From Fusobacterium perfoetens ATCC 29250 (GTDB lineage: Bacteria; Fusobacteriota; Fusobacteriia; Fusobacteriales; Fusobacteriaceae), in contig NZ_KK211416.1 of NCBI RefSeq assembly GCF_000622245.1, positions 230,296 through 294,295 on the forward strand: 64,000 bases of DNA, given 5' to 3'. Positions 51,186 through 57,343 of this stretch are shown one piece after another (position 1 is the stretch's first letter; each line of letters begins with the position of its first letter). The position numbers and the translations under genes are program-made. The notes beneath the pieces were generated by a model. It searched no databases and was not told where the DNA came from. It was given only the letters and a program-made list of their open reading frames with translations.

Positions 51186-52769
51186 TTAGATATGTTTTTT
51201 TCTTGTTATTAATAAAATAACTGCAAGAGCTATCATTCCAAAAGGAAGAGCTAAGAATAAACTTCTAGTATATCCTACTATAATATAAGAAACAAAAGAT
51301 ACAGCAGCTACTGTTAAAGCATAAGGTAATTGAGTATAAACATGATTTACATGATTACTTTGAGCTCCAGCAGAAGCCATTATAGTAGTATCAGAAATTG
51401 GAGAACAATGGTCTCCACAAACAGCCCCAGCCATACAAGAAGAAATTGCTATTATCATCATTTGATGGTCACCTTCAAAAACAGCAACAACTATCGGAAT
51501 TAAAATTCCAAATGTTCCCCAAGAAGTTCCTGTAGCAAAAGCAAGTCCACAACCAACTAAGAATATAATTGCTGGTAACATATTCATTAAAGAACTTGCT
51601 GAAGTCTCCATAAAGTGAGCTACATAAGGAGCTGCTCCTAAACTATCAGTCATAGCTTTTAAAGTCCAAGCAAAAGTAAGAATTATAATTGCTGGAACCA
51701 TTGCTTTAAATCCTTCTGGAATACATCCCATACATTGATGGAAAGTTAAAACTCTTTTTAATGAATAAATAATAATTGTAAATATCATTGCAAAAATACT
51801 TCCTAAAGAAAGACCTAGAGATGCATCACTACTAGAAAATGCCTCAACAAATGTAGCTCCACTGAAAAATCCTCCAGTATAAATCATTCCAATTACACAG
51901 CAAATAATTAATAAAGCAATAGGAATTACTAAATCTAAAACAGAACCTTTTTTATTTTCTTGAACTTCTTCTGTAACAAATGAACGGTCAGCAGTTGTAA
52001 ATAAATCTCCATTTAAAGCATTTTCTTCATGAATTCTCATTGGTCCATAATCTATTTTAGAAATAACTAAAGTTACTAACATAAATATTGTAAGTAAAGC
52101 ATAAAAGTTATAAGGAATCGCTTGAATAAATATTGAAAATCCGTCTTCACCAGGAACAAATCCTGTAACTGCTGCTGCCCATGAAGAAATAGGAGCTATA
52201 ATACATACAGGAGCTGCTGTAGAGTCTATAATATAAGCAAGTTTTGCACGAGATACATTATATTTATCAGTAACAGGACGCATAACACTTCCAACAGTTA
52301 AACAATTAAAATAGTCATCAACAAATATTAAACATCCTAGTAATATTGTAGCAAGTTGAGCTGATACACGAGATTTTATTTTTTTACTAGCCCATAATCC
52401 AAAAGCTAATGAACCACCAGCTGAATTCATAAGACAAACCATAGTTCCTAGTACAACTAAGAAAATTAAAATTCCTACATTATAACTACTAGAAAGAACT
52501 GAAATAAAACCATCTTGTAAAATATGAGTAGCCGTTCTTTCAAAAGTAAAACCAGAATAAAATAAACCTCCAACAGTAATTCCTATAAATAGTGAACTAT
52601 AAACTTCTTTAGTTATAAGTGCAAGAACTATCGCCACTATAGGTGGAACTAAAGACCAAAATGTAGAATAAAGTGCTGGTTGATATCCTTCTTCTCCAGC
52701 AAAACTAAAACTAGATAACAGTAAAAACATTGAGCATATAAGAATGCTTCTAATAAAACTTTTTTTCAT
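51186..52769 (-). CDS. NhaC-family transporter under lysine riboswitch (LysW type)
   Basis: 527 residues from ATG 52769, preceded by GGAGGG; an ATG four codons earlier lies in front of the site. An N-terminal signal-like helix (FIRSILICSMFLLLSSFSFA) and about 12 membrane helices with NhaC-superfamily motifs (CLIFVDDYFNCLTVGSVMRP, SSWAAAVTGFVPGEDGF, GDHCSPISDTTIMASAG). A lysine riboswitch and terminator upstream make lysine uptake the likely role; NhaC proteins controlled this way have been proposed as lysine transporters (LysW). Substrate not tested here. Confidence 0.88.
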   Translation of the reverse strand: MKKSFIRSILICSMFLLLSSFSFAGEEGYQPALYSTFWSLVPPIVAIVLALITKEVYSSLFIGITVGGLFYSGFTFERTATHILQDGFISVLSSSYNVGILIFLVVLGTMVCLMNSAGGSLAFGLWASKKIKSRVSAQLATILLGCLIFVDDYFNCLTVGSVMRPVTDKYNVSRAKLAYIIDSTAAPVCIIAPISSWAAAVTGFVPGEDGFSIFIQAIPYNFYALLTIFMLVTLVISKIDYGPMRIHEENALNGDLFTTADRSFVTEEVQENKKGSVLDLVIPIALLIICCVIGMIYTGGFFSGATFVEAFSSSDASLGLSLGSIFAMIFTIIIYSLKRVLTFHQCMGCIPEGFKAMVPAIIILTFAWTLKAMTDSLGAAPYVAHFMETSASSLMNMLPAIIFLVGCGLAFATGTSWGTFGILIPIVVAVFEGDHQMMIIAISSCMAGAVCGDHCSPISDTTIMASAGAQSNHVNHVYTQLPYALTVAAVSFVSYIIVGYTRSLFLALPFGMIALAVILLITRKKHI

Positions 52770-52807
52770 AAAACCCTCCATATTTATAAAAATTTAATAT
52801 TAACAAA

Positions 52808-52838
52808 TAAAAAAAGCCACAAATAAAATGAGGCTTCA
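52808..52838 (-). terminator. Riboswitch terminator hairpin
   Basis: Read leftward, AAGCCTCA and TGTGGCTT form a stem (one T/A mismatch), followed by a T run (complement of 52806-52815). It lies between the lysine aptamer and the transporter gene and is the expected expression platform: terminate when lysine is bound. Confidence 0.75.
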
Positions 52839-52884
52839 CAAAAATGAGTTATATGCAATTAGTGTAATGATAATAACAAAACTA

Positions 52885-53064
52885 ATATACTTTGATAGCT
52901 CTCCACAAATTTGTGACAGTCTATTATATATTTTATAATAGCCCAAGAATTATTTGATGATTATAATCCTTTCGGCAATTCTCCCTTTTATCTAAACAAC
53001 AGTCCATCAACTTTTTACATTTAGATTACTCTTGAAAATTGCAACCTCTATCCTCTAGCTTATT
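52885..53064 (-). promoter_or_regulatory. Lysine riboswitch (L box)
   Basis: Read leftward, the conserved blocks of the L box occur in order: AGCTAGAGG, GATAGAGGTTGCAA, CAAGAGTA, GGGAGAATTGCCGAAAGG, CTTGGGCTAT with its partner ATAATAG, ACTGTCAC and GTGGAGAGCTATC closing the basal stem. Boundaries are approximate. It binds lysine and controls the NhaC-family gene through the terminator at 52808-52838. Confidence 0.92.
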
Positions 53065-53075
53065 TACTTTTGTGC

Positions 53076-53104
53076 ATTATACTACTTATTTATATAAAAG
53101 TCAA
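53076..53104 (-). promoter_or_regulatory. Promoter of the lysine riboswitch transcript
   Basis: TTGACT (53104-53099, read leftward), a 17-base spacer and TATAAT (53081-53076). Transcription would begin near 53069, a few bases before the aptamer. One of the best promoter matches in the window. Confidence 0.85.
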
Positions 53105-53267
53105 TATAAAACTTAAAAAATATATTTTAGAAAATATATGAGTAATATAAATAAAAGTTATAATAGAAAACTATTGTAATTTTTAATAGAGTTATAAAAA
53201 AATATATTGAATATACCAAAAATATATGATAATATATGTTAATATTTAATAAAAAGGGGTGAGGGTG

Positions 53268-54461
53268 ATGAATTTTATATTTTTATCTCCAAATTTTCCA
53301 AAAAGTTATTGGAATTTTTGTAGAGGATTGAAAAATAATGGTGTTAATGTATTAGGGATTGGGGATGCAGAATATGACAGTTTATCTCCAGAATTAAAAA
53401 ATTCTCTTAATGAATATTACAAGGTTTCATCATTAGAAAATTATGATGAAGTTTATAGAGCTTGTGCTTTCTTTGCTTTTAAATATGGAAAAATTGATTG
53501 GATAGAAAGTAACAATGAATATTGGTTATTAAGAGATGCTAGACTTCGTACAGATTTTAATGTAAACACAGGATTAAAAAATGATAAGATAGCTGGTATA
53601 AAATATAAAAGTAAAATGAAAGAATTTTATGCTATGGCAGGAGTTAAAACAGCTCGTTATCATATAGTTGATAATTATGAAAATTCTTTAGAATTTATTA
53701 GAGAAGTAAGCTATCCTGTAATTGTAAAACCAAATAATGGAGTTGGAGCAGCTGCTACTTATAGACTTGATAGTGATGAAGAATTTAATTTTTTCTATGA
53801 AACTTATGATAAAGATATAGAATATATAATGGAAGAATTTATAAATGGAGAATTACTTTCATATGATGGTATAGTAAATAGTAAAAAAGAAATAGTTTTT
53901 GAAACAGCTCATGCTTATCCTACACCTATTATGGATATTGTAAATGAGAAAAAAGATGTAACTTACTATTCTTATAGAATTATACCAGAAGATTTAAAAG
54001 AGGCAGGAAGAAAAACTGTTCAAACTTTTGATACAAATAGTCGTTTTTTTCATTGTGAATTCTTTAGACTTTTAGAAGATAAACCAGGATTAGGAAACAA
54101 AGGAGAAATAGTAGGATTAGAAGTTAATATGCGTCCACCTGGAGGATATACTCCTGATATGATGAATTTCGCTAATAATATAGATGTTTATCAAGTTTGG
54201 GCAAATATGATTTGTTTTGATGAAGGAAAATTTGATGTTGATTCAAGACCATATCATTGTATTTATGTTTCAAGAAGAGATGAACATAATTATGTAAATT
54301 CAAAAGAATATGTTTTAGAGAAATATAAAAATAATATAGTGATGATAGAAAGAATGCCTGATATATTTTCAGCAGCAATGGGAAATGATATGATTACTGC
54401 AAGATTTGAGACACTAGAACAATGCTTAGAATTTGAAAATGATTATCTAAAACAATACTAG
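53268..54461 (+). CDS. ATP-grasp ligase-like protein
   Basis: 397 residues. ATG 53268 is preferred over GTG 53259 because AAGGGGTGAGGG lies upstream. The ATP-grasp fold is visible: a pre-ATP-grasp region, IAGIKYKSKMKEFYAMAGVK, SYPVIVKPNNGVGAAATYRL (ATP-binding loop), YIMEEFINGELLSYDGIVN, and metal-binding GEIVGLEVNMRPPGGYTPDM. It should activate a carboxylate with ATP and join it to an amine or other nucleophile. Product unknown. It stands first in a cassette with two esterase-fold genes. Confidence 0.87.
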   Translation: MNFIFLSPNFPKSYWNFCRGLKNNGVNVLGIGDAEYDSLSPELKNSLNEYYKVSSLENYDEVYRACAFFAFKYGKIDWIESNNEYWLLRDARLRTDFNVNTGLKNDKIAGIKYKSKMKEFYAMAGVKTARYHIVDNYENSLEFIREVSYPVIVKPNNGVGAAATYRLDSDEEFNFFYETYDKDIEYIMEEFINGELLSYDGIVNSKKEIVFETAHAYPTPIMDIVNEKKDVTYYSYRIIPEDLKEAGRKTVQTFDTNSRFFHCEFFRLLEDKPGLGNKGEIVGLEVNMRPPGGYTPDMMNFANNIDVYQVWANMICFDEGKFDVDSRPYHCIYVSRRDEHNYVNSKEYVLEKYKNNIVMIERMPDIFSAAMGNDMITARFETLEQCLEFENDYLKQY

Positions 54462-54478
54462 AAAAAGGGGGAGAGAAT

Positions 54479-55234
54479 ATGTATATAGCTTATTATAAAG
54501 AATATAGCCATTTTTTAGGAAGAGATATGGAATTTAAAGTTTATGGACATAGTGGAAAACCATGTGTAGTTTTTCCAGCTCAAGATGGAAGATTTTTTGA
54601 TTATGAAGGATTTGGAATGGTTGAATGTATAAAAAATTATATAGAAGAGGGGAAAATTCAACTATTTTGTGTTGATAGCATAGATTTAGAAAGTTGGTCT
54701 AGAAAAAATGGAGATTATCAGCAAAGAATAGAACAACATGAAAAATGGTTTAATTATATAATTAATGAAGCTATTCCAAGATTTAGAGAAATTTATGGTG
54801 AAACTTCTGGAAATTATTATTATGGAAAATTTTTAACAACAGGTTGTAGTATGGGAGCGTATCATTCAGCAAATTTCTTTTTCCGTCGTCCTGATGTATT
54901 TGATAGTGTTATATCATTAAGTGGATTATATGATGCAAACTTCTTTTTTCCAAACCATTTTAATGAACTAATTTATAATAATTCACCTGTTGAGTTTTTA
55001 AGAAATATGCCTTGGAATCATCCATATCTAGATATATATAGAAATTCTAAAATTGTAATTTGTGTAGGACAAGGTAGATGGGAAGAAGAATGTATTAGAG
55101 ATACAAACTATATGAAAGAAAATCTTGAAAGATTACAAGTTCCAGCTTGGATAGATTATTGGGGATATGATGTTGACCATGATTGGCCATGGTGGAGAGT
55201 TCAACTTCCATATTTTTTAAGTCATATATTGTAA
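54479..55234 (+). CDS. Esterase family (alpha/beta hydrolase) protein
   Basis: 251 residues, esterase-D-like (Pfam putative esterase). FLTTGCSMGAYHSANFFFRR holds the GCSMG nucleophile elbow; KIVICVGQGRWEEECIRDTN and YWGYDVDHDWPWWRVQLPYF carry the probable acid and histidine (DHDW). No signal peptide. GGGGGAGAG precedes the ATG. 17 bases after the ATP-grasp gene and 10 before the next esterase. Confidence 0.82.
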   Translation: MYIAYYKEYSHFLGRDMEFKVYGHSGKPCVVFPAQDGRFFDYEGFGMVECIKNYIEEGKIQLFCVDSIDLESWSRKNGDYQQRIEQHEKWFNYIINEAIPRFREIYGETSGNYYYGKFLTTGCSMGAYHSANFFFRRPDVFDSVISLSGLYDANFFFPNHFNELIYNNSPVEFLRNMPWNHPYLDIYRNSKIVICVGQGRWEEECIRDTNYMKENLERLQVPAWIDYWGYDVDHDWPWWRVQLPYFLSHIL

Positions 55235-55244
55235 GGAGTGATTT

Positions 55245-56003
55245 ATGATTATCAAAGAGGAAATTTTTATAAAACCTTTTAAAACAAATAGACTTTTACA
55301 TATTTATTTACCAGACAATATAAAAGAGGGAGAAAGATTTCCTGTTATGTACATGTTTGATGGACATAATCTTTTTTATGATACAGATGCTACATATGGA
55401 AAATCTTGGGGTATAAAAGATTTTTTAGATTCTGTTAATGGAAGAATAATTATAGTTGGTATAGAATGTAATCATGAAGGAAATATGAGATTATGTGAAT
55501 TTTCTCCATACTCTTTTACTGATGAAGAATGGGGAAAAGTAAGAGGTCTTGGTAAAAAAACTACTAATTGGATAGCAGATGTTTTGAAGCCATATATTGA
55601 TTCTAAATTTCCAACTTTACCAGAAAGAGAATTTACTGGTATAGGTGGAAGCTCAATGGGAGGATTAATGTCTGTTTATGGAATAGCAACTAGGTCAGAT
55701 GTTTTTTCAAAAGCTGCTTGTGTTTCGCCTTTTTATGATTATATATTTGGAAAACTTGTTAAAGATATAGAAAATACGTCTTTTAATTCTGATACTACTA
55801 TATATATAAGTTGGGGAAAAAGAGAATTTGCAGGAGCTAAAAATCTTGCTATAGGAACTGAAAAAAATCTAATAATAAGTAGAATGTTTACAGAAAAAGG
55901 AGCTAAAGTTTTTCCTCATTTAATGGTTAGTGGTGGACATGATGAAACTTCTTGGGAAAAAGAGTTGCCATCATTTTTCTATGAGTTGGGATATATAAAA
56001 TAA
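55245..56003 (+). CDS. Esterase family (alpha/beta hydrolase) protein
   Basis: 252 residues. NRLLHIYLPDNIKEGERFPV then MYMFDGHNLFYDTDATYG, SWGIKDFLDS, TGIGGSSMGGLMSVYGIATR (GGSSMGG elbow), and MVSGGHDETSWEKELPSFFY (His). A Fes/esterase-D-type fold, distinct from the gene upstream. Cytoplasmic. Substrate unknown; together with the ATP-grasp gene it suggests making and breaking an ester or amide product. Confidence 0.84.
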   Translation: MIIKEEIFIKPFKTNRLLHIYLPDNIKEGERFPVMYMFDGHNLFYDTDATYGKSWGIKDFLDSVNGRIIIVGIECNHEGNMRLCEFSPYSFTDEEWGKVRGLGKKTTNWIADVLKPYIDSKFPTLPEREFTGIGGSSMGGLMSVYGIATRSDVFSKAACVSPFYDYIFGKLVKDIENTSFNSDTTIYISWGKREFAGAKNLAIGTEKNLIISRMFTEKGAKVFPHLMVSGGHDETSWEKELPSFFYELGYIK

Positions 56004-56011
56004 AAAAATAG

Positions 56012-56049
56012 GGTATTACAAAGTTGATTAATTTGTAATACCTTTTTTT
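56012..56049 (+). terminator. Terminator after the esterase cassette
   Basis: GGTATTACAAA (56012-56022) pairs perfectly with TTTGTAATACC (56032-56042), followed by T7. It closes the three-gene cassette. Confidence 0.9.
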
Positions 56050-56077
56050 ATTTTGTGTATATATAAATATTTTTAAT

Positions 56078-56365
56078 AATAGGACTTTATATAGAATATT
56101 TAACTGTTTTATTATAAAAATAAAAATTATTTTTGTAAGTTAAATAATTTAACTCAATATAATGTTAATTATATCTAATTTAATAAATCCACTTATTATT
56201 ATAAAAATAAAAATTATTTTTATAAGTTTTTAATTTTGCATAAAAATATATAATTTAACTTAAAGATTATATAATACTAATTAAAAAATAAAAATATCTT
56301 AAAATCCTTTATAAATTAAAAAACAAAAATATAGTATAAAAAGTCCTATTATTTTTTATATTTAT
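56078..56365. repeat. Repeat-rich intergenic region, left of the recombinase
   Basis: No gene. Inverted copies of a 16-base repeat stand at 56078-56093 (AATAGGACTTTATATA) and 56335-56350 (TATAAAAAGTCCTATT). Between them a 30-base element occurs twice as a direct repeat with 29 of 30 bases identical (56111-56140 and 56198-56227). Partial inverted copies of both kinds lie on the other side of the recombinase gene (57362-57539). Possible recombination sites. Confidence 0.75.
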
Positions 56366-57343
56366 TTAATCAGGGATTTTAGATATAACCTTCTTATCAA
56401 GTAAAGATTTTGCATTGATATATATCTCTGTTACTTTAGTATCTGAATGTCCTAAGAAATCTCTAATCTCTATTAAGTCTGCTCCATTAGAAGAAAGTTC
56501 CGTAGCGATTGCATGTCTTATATTGTGTGGGCTTATATTTAATCCTATAACTTTTCCCATATCTTGAATTATATTATAGAGAGCTTTATATGAAAGTTGA
56601 GAGTTTTTTTCATAAGAACTAGAAAAAACATATCTCTCTTCTAACTCCTCTTCTGAATATCCATACATATTCATAATATAATTTTTAAATTCTAAAAGTT
56701 TTTCTACAAGAATATTATGAAGTGGTTTATATAACTCCTTACCACTTTTAGATTTTTCAATTTTTATAAAGTAATCATTATCTCTTTTAAGTATATTTTT
56801 ATATCGGACATTTAATAATTCTTGACTTCTCATTCCTGTATAAAATAGTGTATACATAATAATGGTATTTCTATATTCCTTTTCTCCAGAAACTTTGTAA
56901 TTAGCTAAAATATTTTTTATATCTTCGTAAGATACTTTTAAAATGTTATCTAAGTTTCTAGAAGTTTTAAAAAGCTTTATATGTTTTAAAGGGTTAAGAA
57001 CATTATATTTTTCTAACTCCTTATATAAAGATTTAAGGGCTGACATAATTTTATTAACAGATGTTTTTTTTAGTTTTCTTTCATATAATAAATGAGAAAG
57101 ATAATCTTCTACATCTTCTTCTGTTATATCAGACATAAGTTCTAAAACTTCATCATTTTGTATAGGTTCTCCATTGTCATAAACAAAAAGTAAAAAATCA
57201 TTCAAATAAAAAAAATAATCTTTCATAGTTTTTTCACTACGATAGATTTCAAATATGGATTTTCTATTTTCTTTTTCTCTTTTTTTTCTACGCCGAACAG
57301 AAACTTCATTTTTTTCTTTTACTATTAAATCCAAAAACAACAC
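56366..57343 (-). CDS. Tyrosine recombinase (XerC/XerD-like)
   Basis: 325 residues. N-terminal helical core-binding domain (KTMKDYFFYLNDFLLFVYDN, TEEDVEDYLSHLLYERKLKK) and a catalytic domain with LFYTGMRSQELLNVRYKNIL (first Arg), SPHNIRHAIATELSSNGADL (His-x-x-Arg), IEIRDFLGHSDTKVTEIYIN (His and nucleophile Tyr). All catalytic residues are present, so it should be active. AGAGGTG lies before the start. Flanked on both sides by matching inverted repeats. It could be a chromosome-dimer resolvase with its site next to it, an invertase, or the remnant of a mobile element. Confidence 0.87.
   Translation of the reverse strand: MLFLDLIVKEKNEVSVRRRKKREKENRKSIFEIYRSEKTMKDYFFYLNDFLLFVYDNGEPIQNDEVLELMSDITEEDVEDYLSHLLYERKLKKTSVNKIMSALKSLYKELEKYNVLNPLKHIKLFKTSRNLDNILKVSYEDIKNILANYKVSGEKEYRNTIIMYTLFYTGMRSQELLNVRYKNILKRDNDYFIKIEKSKSGKELYKPLHNILVEKLLEFKNYIMNMYGYSEEELEERYVFSSSYEKNSQLSYKALYNIIQDMGKVIGLNISPHNIRHAIATELSSNGADLIEIRDFLGHSDTKVTEIYINAKSLLDKKVISKIPD

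Follow-up and report, generated by a model that had tools for sequence, protein, structure and literature searches.

The 64,000-nucleotide stretch of the Fusobacterium perfoetens ATCC 29250 genome analyzed here (contig NZ_KK211416.1 of assembly GCF_000622245.1, positions 230,296 to 294,295; hereafter the window) carries three adjacent genes, which we call A, B and C, for a predicted ATP-grasp ligase and two predicted esterases. They belong to a real, conserved and previously uncharacterized unit built from known kinds of enzyme. The core of this unit is the A-B pair; C is a looser partner, and A-B-C is one version. In the interpretation that we prefer, and to which we give about an even chance, the unit is a small pathway independent of nonribosomal peptide synthetases, in which A would join a small carboxylate in amide linkage, and an ester of the same compound would be cleaved or transferred by B and sometimes by C.

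Across 98 Fusobacteriota genomes, with strong matches defined as E < 1e-80 for A, E < 1e-50 for B and E < 1e-100 for C, A is present in 30 genomes and B in the identical 30, and B adjoins A in all 30 loci. Strong matches to C occur in 11 genomes, all from the window's own family, Fusobacteriaceae (f1, which includes Fusobacterium mortiferum, L031), each time 3′ of B. Of the remaining 19 genomes with A, 18 belong to family f4, probably Leptotrichiaceae, and show A-B; the last, G097, comes from a further family and shows A-B-A′, where A′ is a second ligase gene. In one of the 11 Fusobacteriaceae genomes with C (G028, locus L023), A and B are each broken across two frames and C is intact, owing either to decay or to an assembly error. 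Wider loci were read for 12 of the 18 f4 genomes, and in 10 of these (L057, L058, L060, L062-L068) two ATP-binding cassette (ABC) transporter genes in the same direction follow next 3′ of B (at 84-442 bp); in one locus (L064), Pfam bears out their membrane and ATPase domains.

The association recurs in Erysipelotrichales, the order of Anaerorhabdus furcosa (L044), for which 294 genomes were searched (A, E < 1e-30; B, E < 1e-20; C, E < 1e-30). A was found in 209 genomes and B in 205; 201 have both, 8 have A only, 4 have B only and 81 have neither (i.e., 12 are discordant). Where a place of each gene is listed, A and B lie no more than 2.5 kb apart in 116 of 122 genomes. The 30 best-scoring loci from this search, viewed with flanks of up to 1.5 kb, all contain A-B, 7 of them as A-B-C, 16 as A-B-A′ and 7 as the plain pair. 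An earlier note on the window had proposed a dedicated pathway and had named rare adjacency of the three genes as the observation that would speak against it. For A and B, rare adjacency is refuted by these counts; C is looser. C-family matches occur in 219 of the 294 genomes, and C stands beside A or B in at least 46 of the 108 genomes where C and one or both of the others have a listed place. The whole trio is together in at least 24 of the 78 genomes with listed places of A, B and C. Both adjacency figures are lower bounds, taken from listed places that do not include second copies of A.

In the Clostridia sample, A is present in 6 of 391 genomes (centre included) at nine places, and all nine are partnered (A-B at three, C-B-A at two, C-A at four). 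In the 20 loci of a genome scan, B is beside A in 15 and only C in one, one runs into a contig end, and A is alone in three. The pair also occurs on large plasmids of Peptoclostridium acidaminophilum (46% identity for A, 50% for B) and of two Rhizobiaceae, Pararhizobium qamdonense (39% and 45%) and a Sinorhizobium (39% and 40%). Five more plasmid records hold solely distant A matches, and no annotated ATP-grasp gene was found in the two annotated regions read around distant PF00756 relatives on other plasmids (L137 and L139); a third such region, L138, carries no annotation. Several records name rumen or gut as the origin of the sample, and the A-B pair is also found in mud and soil records.

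The gene orders encountered are A-B, A-B-C, C-B-A, C-A, A-B-A′, A-B-C-A′ and B-A. Among 41 loci, of which some share a genome, no neighbor family is present in more than eight once A, B, C and one ABC-transporter family are set aside. Conserved adjacency, co-occurrence and changing gene order together support a dedicated unit. This bears out the dedicated unit of the earlier proposal, of which the full trio is only one version, with C often elsewhere.

In a tree of 90 A proteins, the 10 Fusobacteriaceae rows fall inside a 19-row clade (support 97/90) together with 8 rows of Erysipelotrichales type and 1 from the Clostridia sample; A-B-C stands at 17 of the 19, one locus runs off its contig and one is without C. 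The clade points to transfer of the whole trio from one phylum to another, a reading to be taken with the caveats that an inner support is only 89/73, several branches are long and the tree is rooted at its midpoint. In the same tree, the lone A of L050, from a contig binned as Bacteroidales, clusters with a row of the Clostridia sample, which reflects either transfer or a binning error.

Within the window, the three open reading frames are each unbroken and run in the same direction, as the earlier note had placed them (Table 1), with 17 bp between A and B and 10 bp between B and C. The ATG of A lies downstream of the ribosome-binding-like sequence aaaaaggggtgagggtg, and an earlier GTG (53259) falls within that sequence. 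Against four relatives, the ratios of nonsynonymous to synonymous substitution rates come to 0.12-0.21 (A), 0.05-0.21 (B) and 0.10-0.28 (C), which argues that all three are kept as proteins. The terminator proposed to close the cassette is borne out by folding: the hairpin 3′ of C reads GGTATTACAAA-N9-TTTGTAATACC-T7, and the surrounding 52 nt (56004-56055) fold at -15.4 kcal/mol (z -5.05), with none of 200 shuffles equally stable. A consensus terminator scanner, whose loop limit is 8 versus the actual loop of 9, made no call at the cassette. Sigma-70-like promoter sites in 52780-56400 number 29 versus 28.5 in shuffled sequence, i.e., there is no excess.

Table 1. Features of the cassette in the window (positions are those of the window)
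Feature	Position	Strand	Basis
Gene A, predicted ATP-grasp ligase, 397 aa	53268-54461	+	Pfam, AlphaFold2 model, conserved residues
Gene B, predicted CE1-type serine esterase, 251 aa, constant partner of A	54479-55234	+	PF00756, AlphaFold2 model, conserved residues
Gene C, second PF00756 esterase (predicted), 252 aa, facultative partner	55245-56003	+	PF00756, conserved residues
Intrinsic terminator, 11-bp stem, 9-nt loop, T7	56012-56049	+	Folding, sequence

A is predicted to be an ATP-grasp ligase with a fold nearest to those of L-amino-acid ligases. It passes the Pfam model ATP-grasp_3 (25.2 bits; cut-off 23.2), is only at the cut-off of CPSase_L_D2 (19.8) and is below the cut-offs of four other listed ATP-grasp models, so that the overall Pfam match is weak. 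The AlphaFold2 model (predicted local distance difference test, pLDDT, 89.9) has 3vot (Z 30.5, root-mean-square deviation [rmsd] 3.5, 356 residues aligned) and RizA, 4wd3 (Z 30.1, rmsd 4.4, 361 aligned), as its closest PDB folds, and Foldseek ranks 4wd3 first and 3vot second; A therefore matches L-amino-acid ligases over its full length and above other ATP-grasp folds. A profile of 15 homologs compared with PDB sequences likewise finds RizA as its top match (E 3.8e-14), with the R-x-x-G-G stretch aligned. K114, K154, H262, E264, E285, N287 and R289 are present in all 88 distinct sequences (window included), K118 in 86, and G293 and R337 in 81 each. Residues of this kind have roles in ATP, metal and acyl binding in ATP-grasp enzymes. 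The ATP-grasp type named in the earlier note is supported by Pfam and fold, and coupling of a carboxylate by A would fit the predicted fold and the intact ATP-grasp residues. Several specific identities were rejected on their NCBIfam scores, namely PurD (29.9 bits; cut-off 288), PurK (21.1; 318.4), the D-Ala-D-Ala ligase Ddl (27.3; 243), a carbamoyl-phosphate-synthase-like protein (36.2; 286), a BacD ortholog (NF053745, 14.4; 850) and the RimK family (13.9; 143.4).

B and C both pass the Pfam Esterase model PF00756 (48.6 and 72.0 bits; cut-off 22), and by sequence they are only remotely alike (BLASTP E 0.002 over 31 residues; 93.8% probability when their alignments are compared with hhalign). 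Of the two unlike alpha/beta hydrolases that had been proposed, the esterase fold stands (from the B model and from Pfam for both), and "unlike" is to be understood as divergent within one Pfam family. B is a predicted CE1-type serine hydrolase, presumably COG4947. The solved structures closest to its AlphaFold2 model (pLDDT 88.9) are feruloyl esterases of Bacteroides (5vol; Z 22.9, rmsd 2.7, 223 aligned), with S-formylglutathione hydrolases, FphF and antigen 85C trailing by no more than about 1 Z unit. Because several CE1-type activities are this close, the predicted fold of B gives no guide to its substrate, although structure prediction had been suggested earlier for the substrate pockets. 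In sequence comparisons, C matches feruloyl esterases (E 1.4e-5 and 9.2e-5). Both proteins have a GxSxG nucleophile serine plus a conserved acid and histidine. The candidate triad of B is S124-E202-H234 (each in 71 of 71 distinct sequences) and that of C is S137-E194-H232 (S137 and E194 in 24 of 24; H232 in 23, with one gap); we infer the triad roles, including those of E202 and E194 as catalytic acids. By eye, neither B nor C has an obvious signal peptide.

How might these enzymes work together? The trio would be one version of a widespread, self-contained pathway of two to four genes, probably cytosolic. From the fold and the conserved residues we infer that A would convert the carboxyl group of a small acid (probably an amino acid) to an acyl phosphate and join it to an amine, yielding a dipeptide-like amide. 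Given its near-obligate pairing with A, B would work on an ester of that same compound, releasing the acid or alcohol ahead of ligation or else trimming what A has made; trimming or release after ligation, as first proposed, would be one of several possible reaction orders. C, from the same family as B, may serve as an optional extra enzyme that handles a related ester or, given that C-A pairs without an adjacent B exist, as a stand-in for B. A second residue may be added by A′ in the loci that have it. A further-reaching claim, which we put forward tentatively and consider less likely than not, is that most Erysipelotrichales and about one-third of the sampled Fusobacteriota use the cassette to make an undescribed class of small amides, pseudo-di- or tripeptides whose synthesis includes an ester step, and that A-B-C moved between these phyla as a unit.

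A number of observations weigh against this amide-forming pathway. In 6 of the 122 Erysipelotrichales genomes with listed places, A and B as listed are apart (G103, G297, G312, G136, G148 and G155); of the four whose loci were inspected, G103, G297 and G312 have B beside another A copy and G136 is without A in the 11-kb locus around B. A stands alone in 3 of the 20 genome-scan loci (L035, L047 and L050), and Massilia litorea has A (32% identity) but no match to B or C across its 21-kb locus. In 62 of the 108 genomes mentioned above, C is apart from A and B as listed. No regulator, substrate or conserved further pathway gene was found in the loci examined. With regard to A itself, none of the 25 listed NCBIfam families reaches its cut-off, PurK is the next fold (Z 27.8 vs. 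30.5 for 3vot), and the invariant N287 pairs with Ala in the RizA alignment; for these reasons, the ligase type of A rests on the fold.

It is necessary to weigh this proposal against other explanations of the same genes. The cassette could be catabolic, B and C splitting feruloyl-type plant or host esters inside the cell and A ligating the freed acid to an amino acid for detoxification or salvage. The feruloyl esterase resemblances of B and C and the rumen or gut origins of several records are what one would expect. However, S-formylglutathione hydrolase and antigen 85 folds are nearly as close to B, the A-B pair is also found in mud and soil records, and no importer family recurs widely beside it, so we regard this explanation as unlikely. 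We are similarly skeptical that B or C is an acyltransferase of the antigen 85 kind, to which A would supply an acyl or aminoacyl group for transfer to a lipid, sugar or alcohol. The top 50 folds for B do include antigen 85 and corynebacterial mycoloyltransferases (Z about 20-22), and the ABC pair of family f4 could export a product; hydrolase folds score equally high, and antigen 85 acts outside the cell, whereas B and C have no signal peptide evident by eye. A low-molecular-weight thiol system, in which A would make a glutathione-like pseudopeptide and B or C would hydrolyze S-acyl adducts as S-formylglutathione hydrolase does, is suggested by the presence of the latter enzymes among the top folds for B. 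This is argued by analogy, no thiol-related gene was noticed in the neighborhoods read (no dedicated search was made), and we consider such a system quite improbable.

More remote still is a graspetide (ribosomal peptide) locus, in which A would modify a precursor peptide and the hydrolases would take part in its maturation. Some graspetide loci hold alpha/beta hydrolases and an erythromycin-esterase homolog (PMC8939145). A falls far short of the RimK-family cut-off, as noted above, and 53060-53300 and 56000-56400 together contain only two + strand open reading frames of at least 15 codons (23 codons, AT-rich). We consider this explanation very improbable. Finally, the genes might be neighbors by chance or shared ancestry with no common function, and it is true that C-family genes lie elsewhere in many genomes. 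However, the association is seen across phyla despite altered order and flanks, and wider sampling goes against this explanation for A-B; we find it scarcely credible.

Neighboring genes offer some clues to the chemistry. An aminotransferase-like gene lies 27-38 bp 5′ of the cassette in L059 and L061 (Pfam on one), an M20 peptidase-family gene follows A-B-C-A′ in L121, a GNAT gene lies 11 bp 3′ of C in L122, a second hydrolase gene abuts C in L113, and class III aminotransferase and methyltransferase genes precede A in Massilia. These hint at small-molecule chemistry, and the hints are weak because each comes from few loci and none recurs widely. No riboswitch or T-box that might name a substrate was found on the cassette strand in the window, none on either strand in 9 loci, and none directly 5′ of A in 11 plus 12 further loci (the window being the Fusobacteriaceae locus covered by these scans); a thiamine pyrophosphate riboswitch in L111 sits 3′ of B. 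The cassette was also considered as an anti-phage defense system and rejected as such, with PADLOC matching 0 families to A, B or C at E ≤ 0.01.

Some observations made along the way deserve mention in their own right. In Peptoclostridium (L131), 3-deoxy-D-arabino-heptulosonate 7-phosphate (DAHP) synthase genes flank A-B, one directly 3′ of B and one two genes 5′ of A. Tandem distant ATP-grasp genes lie near nodulation genes in Paraburkholderia phymatum (L135) and, with a major facilitator superfamily transporter, on a small mobilizable plasmid of Macrococcoides (L136). Three unannotated "Bacteriophage sp." records from human feces (MT838712, MT836893 and MT838107) contain A homologs with 49-56% identity and may be bacterial fragments. 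In the window, 3′ of the cassette, a tyrosine recombinase gene (56366-57343) could be mistaken for part of a mobile element. It is present in all seven searched genomes of the genus, cassette or not, and in all seven it adjoins a pseudouridine synthase gene; given this constant presence and constant neighbor, independent of the cassette, it looks like a housekeeping gene. None of the four genomes of the genus without the cassette has a clean empty site, and different genes occupy the position. Upstream, on the - strand, a lysine riboswitch (52888-53058; Rfam RF00168, 100.5 bits) lies ahead of a gene (51186-52781) that by eye resembles NhaC-like antiporters, which suggests that this antiporter moves lysine.

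What makes the cassette worth pursuing is that the literature searched describes no function for A, a ligase present in 209 of 294 Erysipelotrichales genomes and nearly always partnered by an esterase. Should A produce an amide that diffuses, bacteria of animal guts would commonly release small molecules from this source, and because the simplest version has two genes, heterologous expression with metabolite analysis is practical. The earlier note recognized no described pathway of this composition, and we found no description of a ligase-esterase cassette in the open-access literature text searched. Related predictions may stand in a comparative study of amidoligases that Iyer and colleagues published in 2009.

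ATP-grasp amide ligases with dedicated partner esterases are already known in kind. One such system pairs a TTL-like ligase with a GDSL/SGNH-like esterase; unlike the cassette, it has an esterase of another superfamily and is secreted, with predicted action on surface polymers. Phosphonoalamide synthesis offers a precedent for tandem ligases, with dipeptides formed by a first ATP-grasp enzyme and attached to phosphonoalanine by another (PMC11867202). These ligases, PnaB and PnaC, together give a tripeptide, as A-B-A′ might; their cluster has phosphonate genes, whereas none was noticed around the cassette, and the available part of the paper mentions a hydrolase of unstated type (orf4) and names no esterase. 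The CE1-type esterases 5vol and 7xrt (both Bacteroides feruloyl esterases), FphF/FrmB (6vh9 and 7l0a) and antigen 85C (1dqz) share the predicted fold of B (Z 21.8-22.9) at 15%-18% identity, and B and C differ from them in being partnered with a ligase. Closest to A are the L-amino-acid ligases, i.e., the Bacillus licheniformis enzyme (3vot), RizA (4wd3) and BacD/YwfE (3vmm and 3wnz), which have the full-length fold in common with it at 14%-20% identity; RizA is alike in the ATP-grasp region and the R-x-x-G-G stretch, and what sets A apart from all of them is its near-obligate esterase partner.

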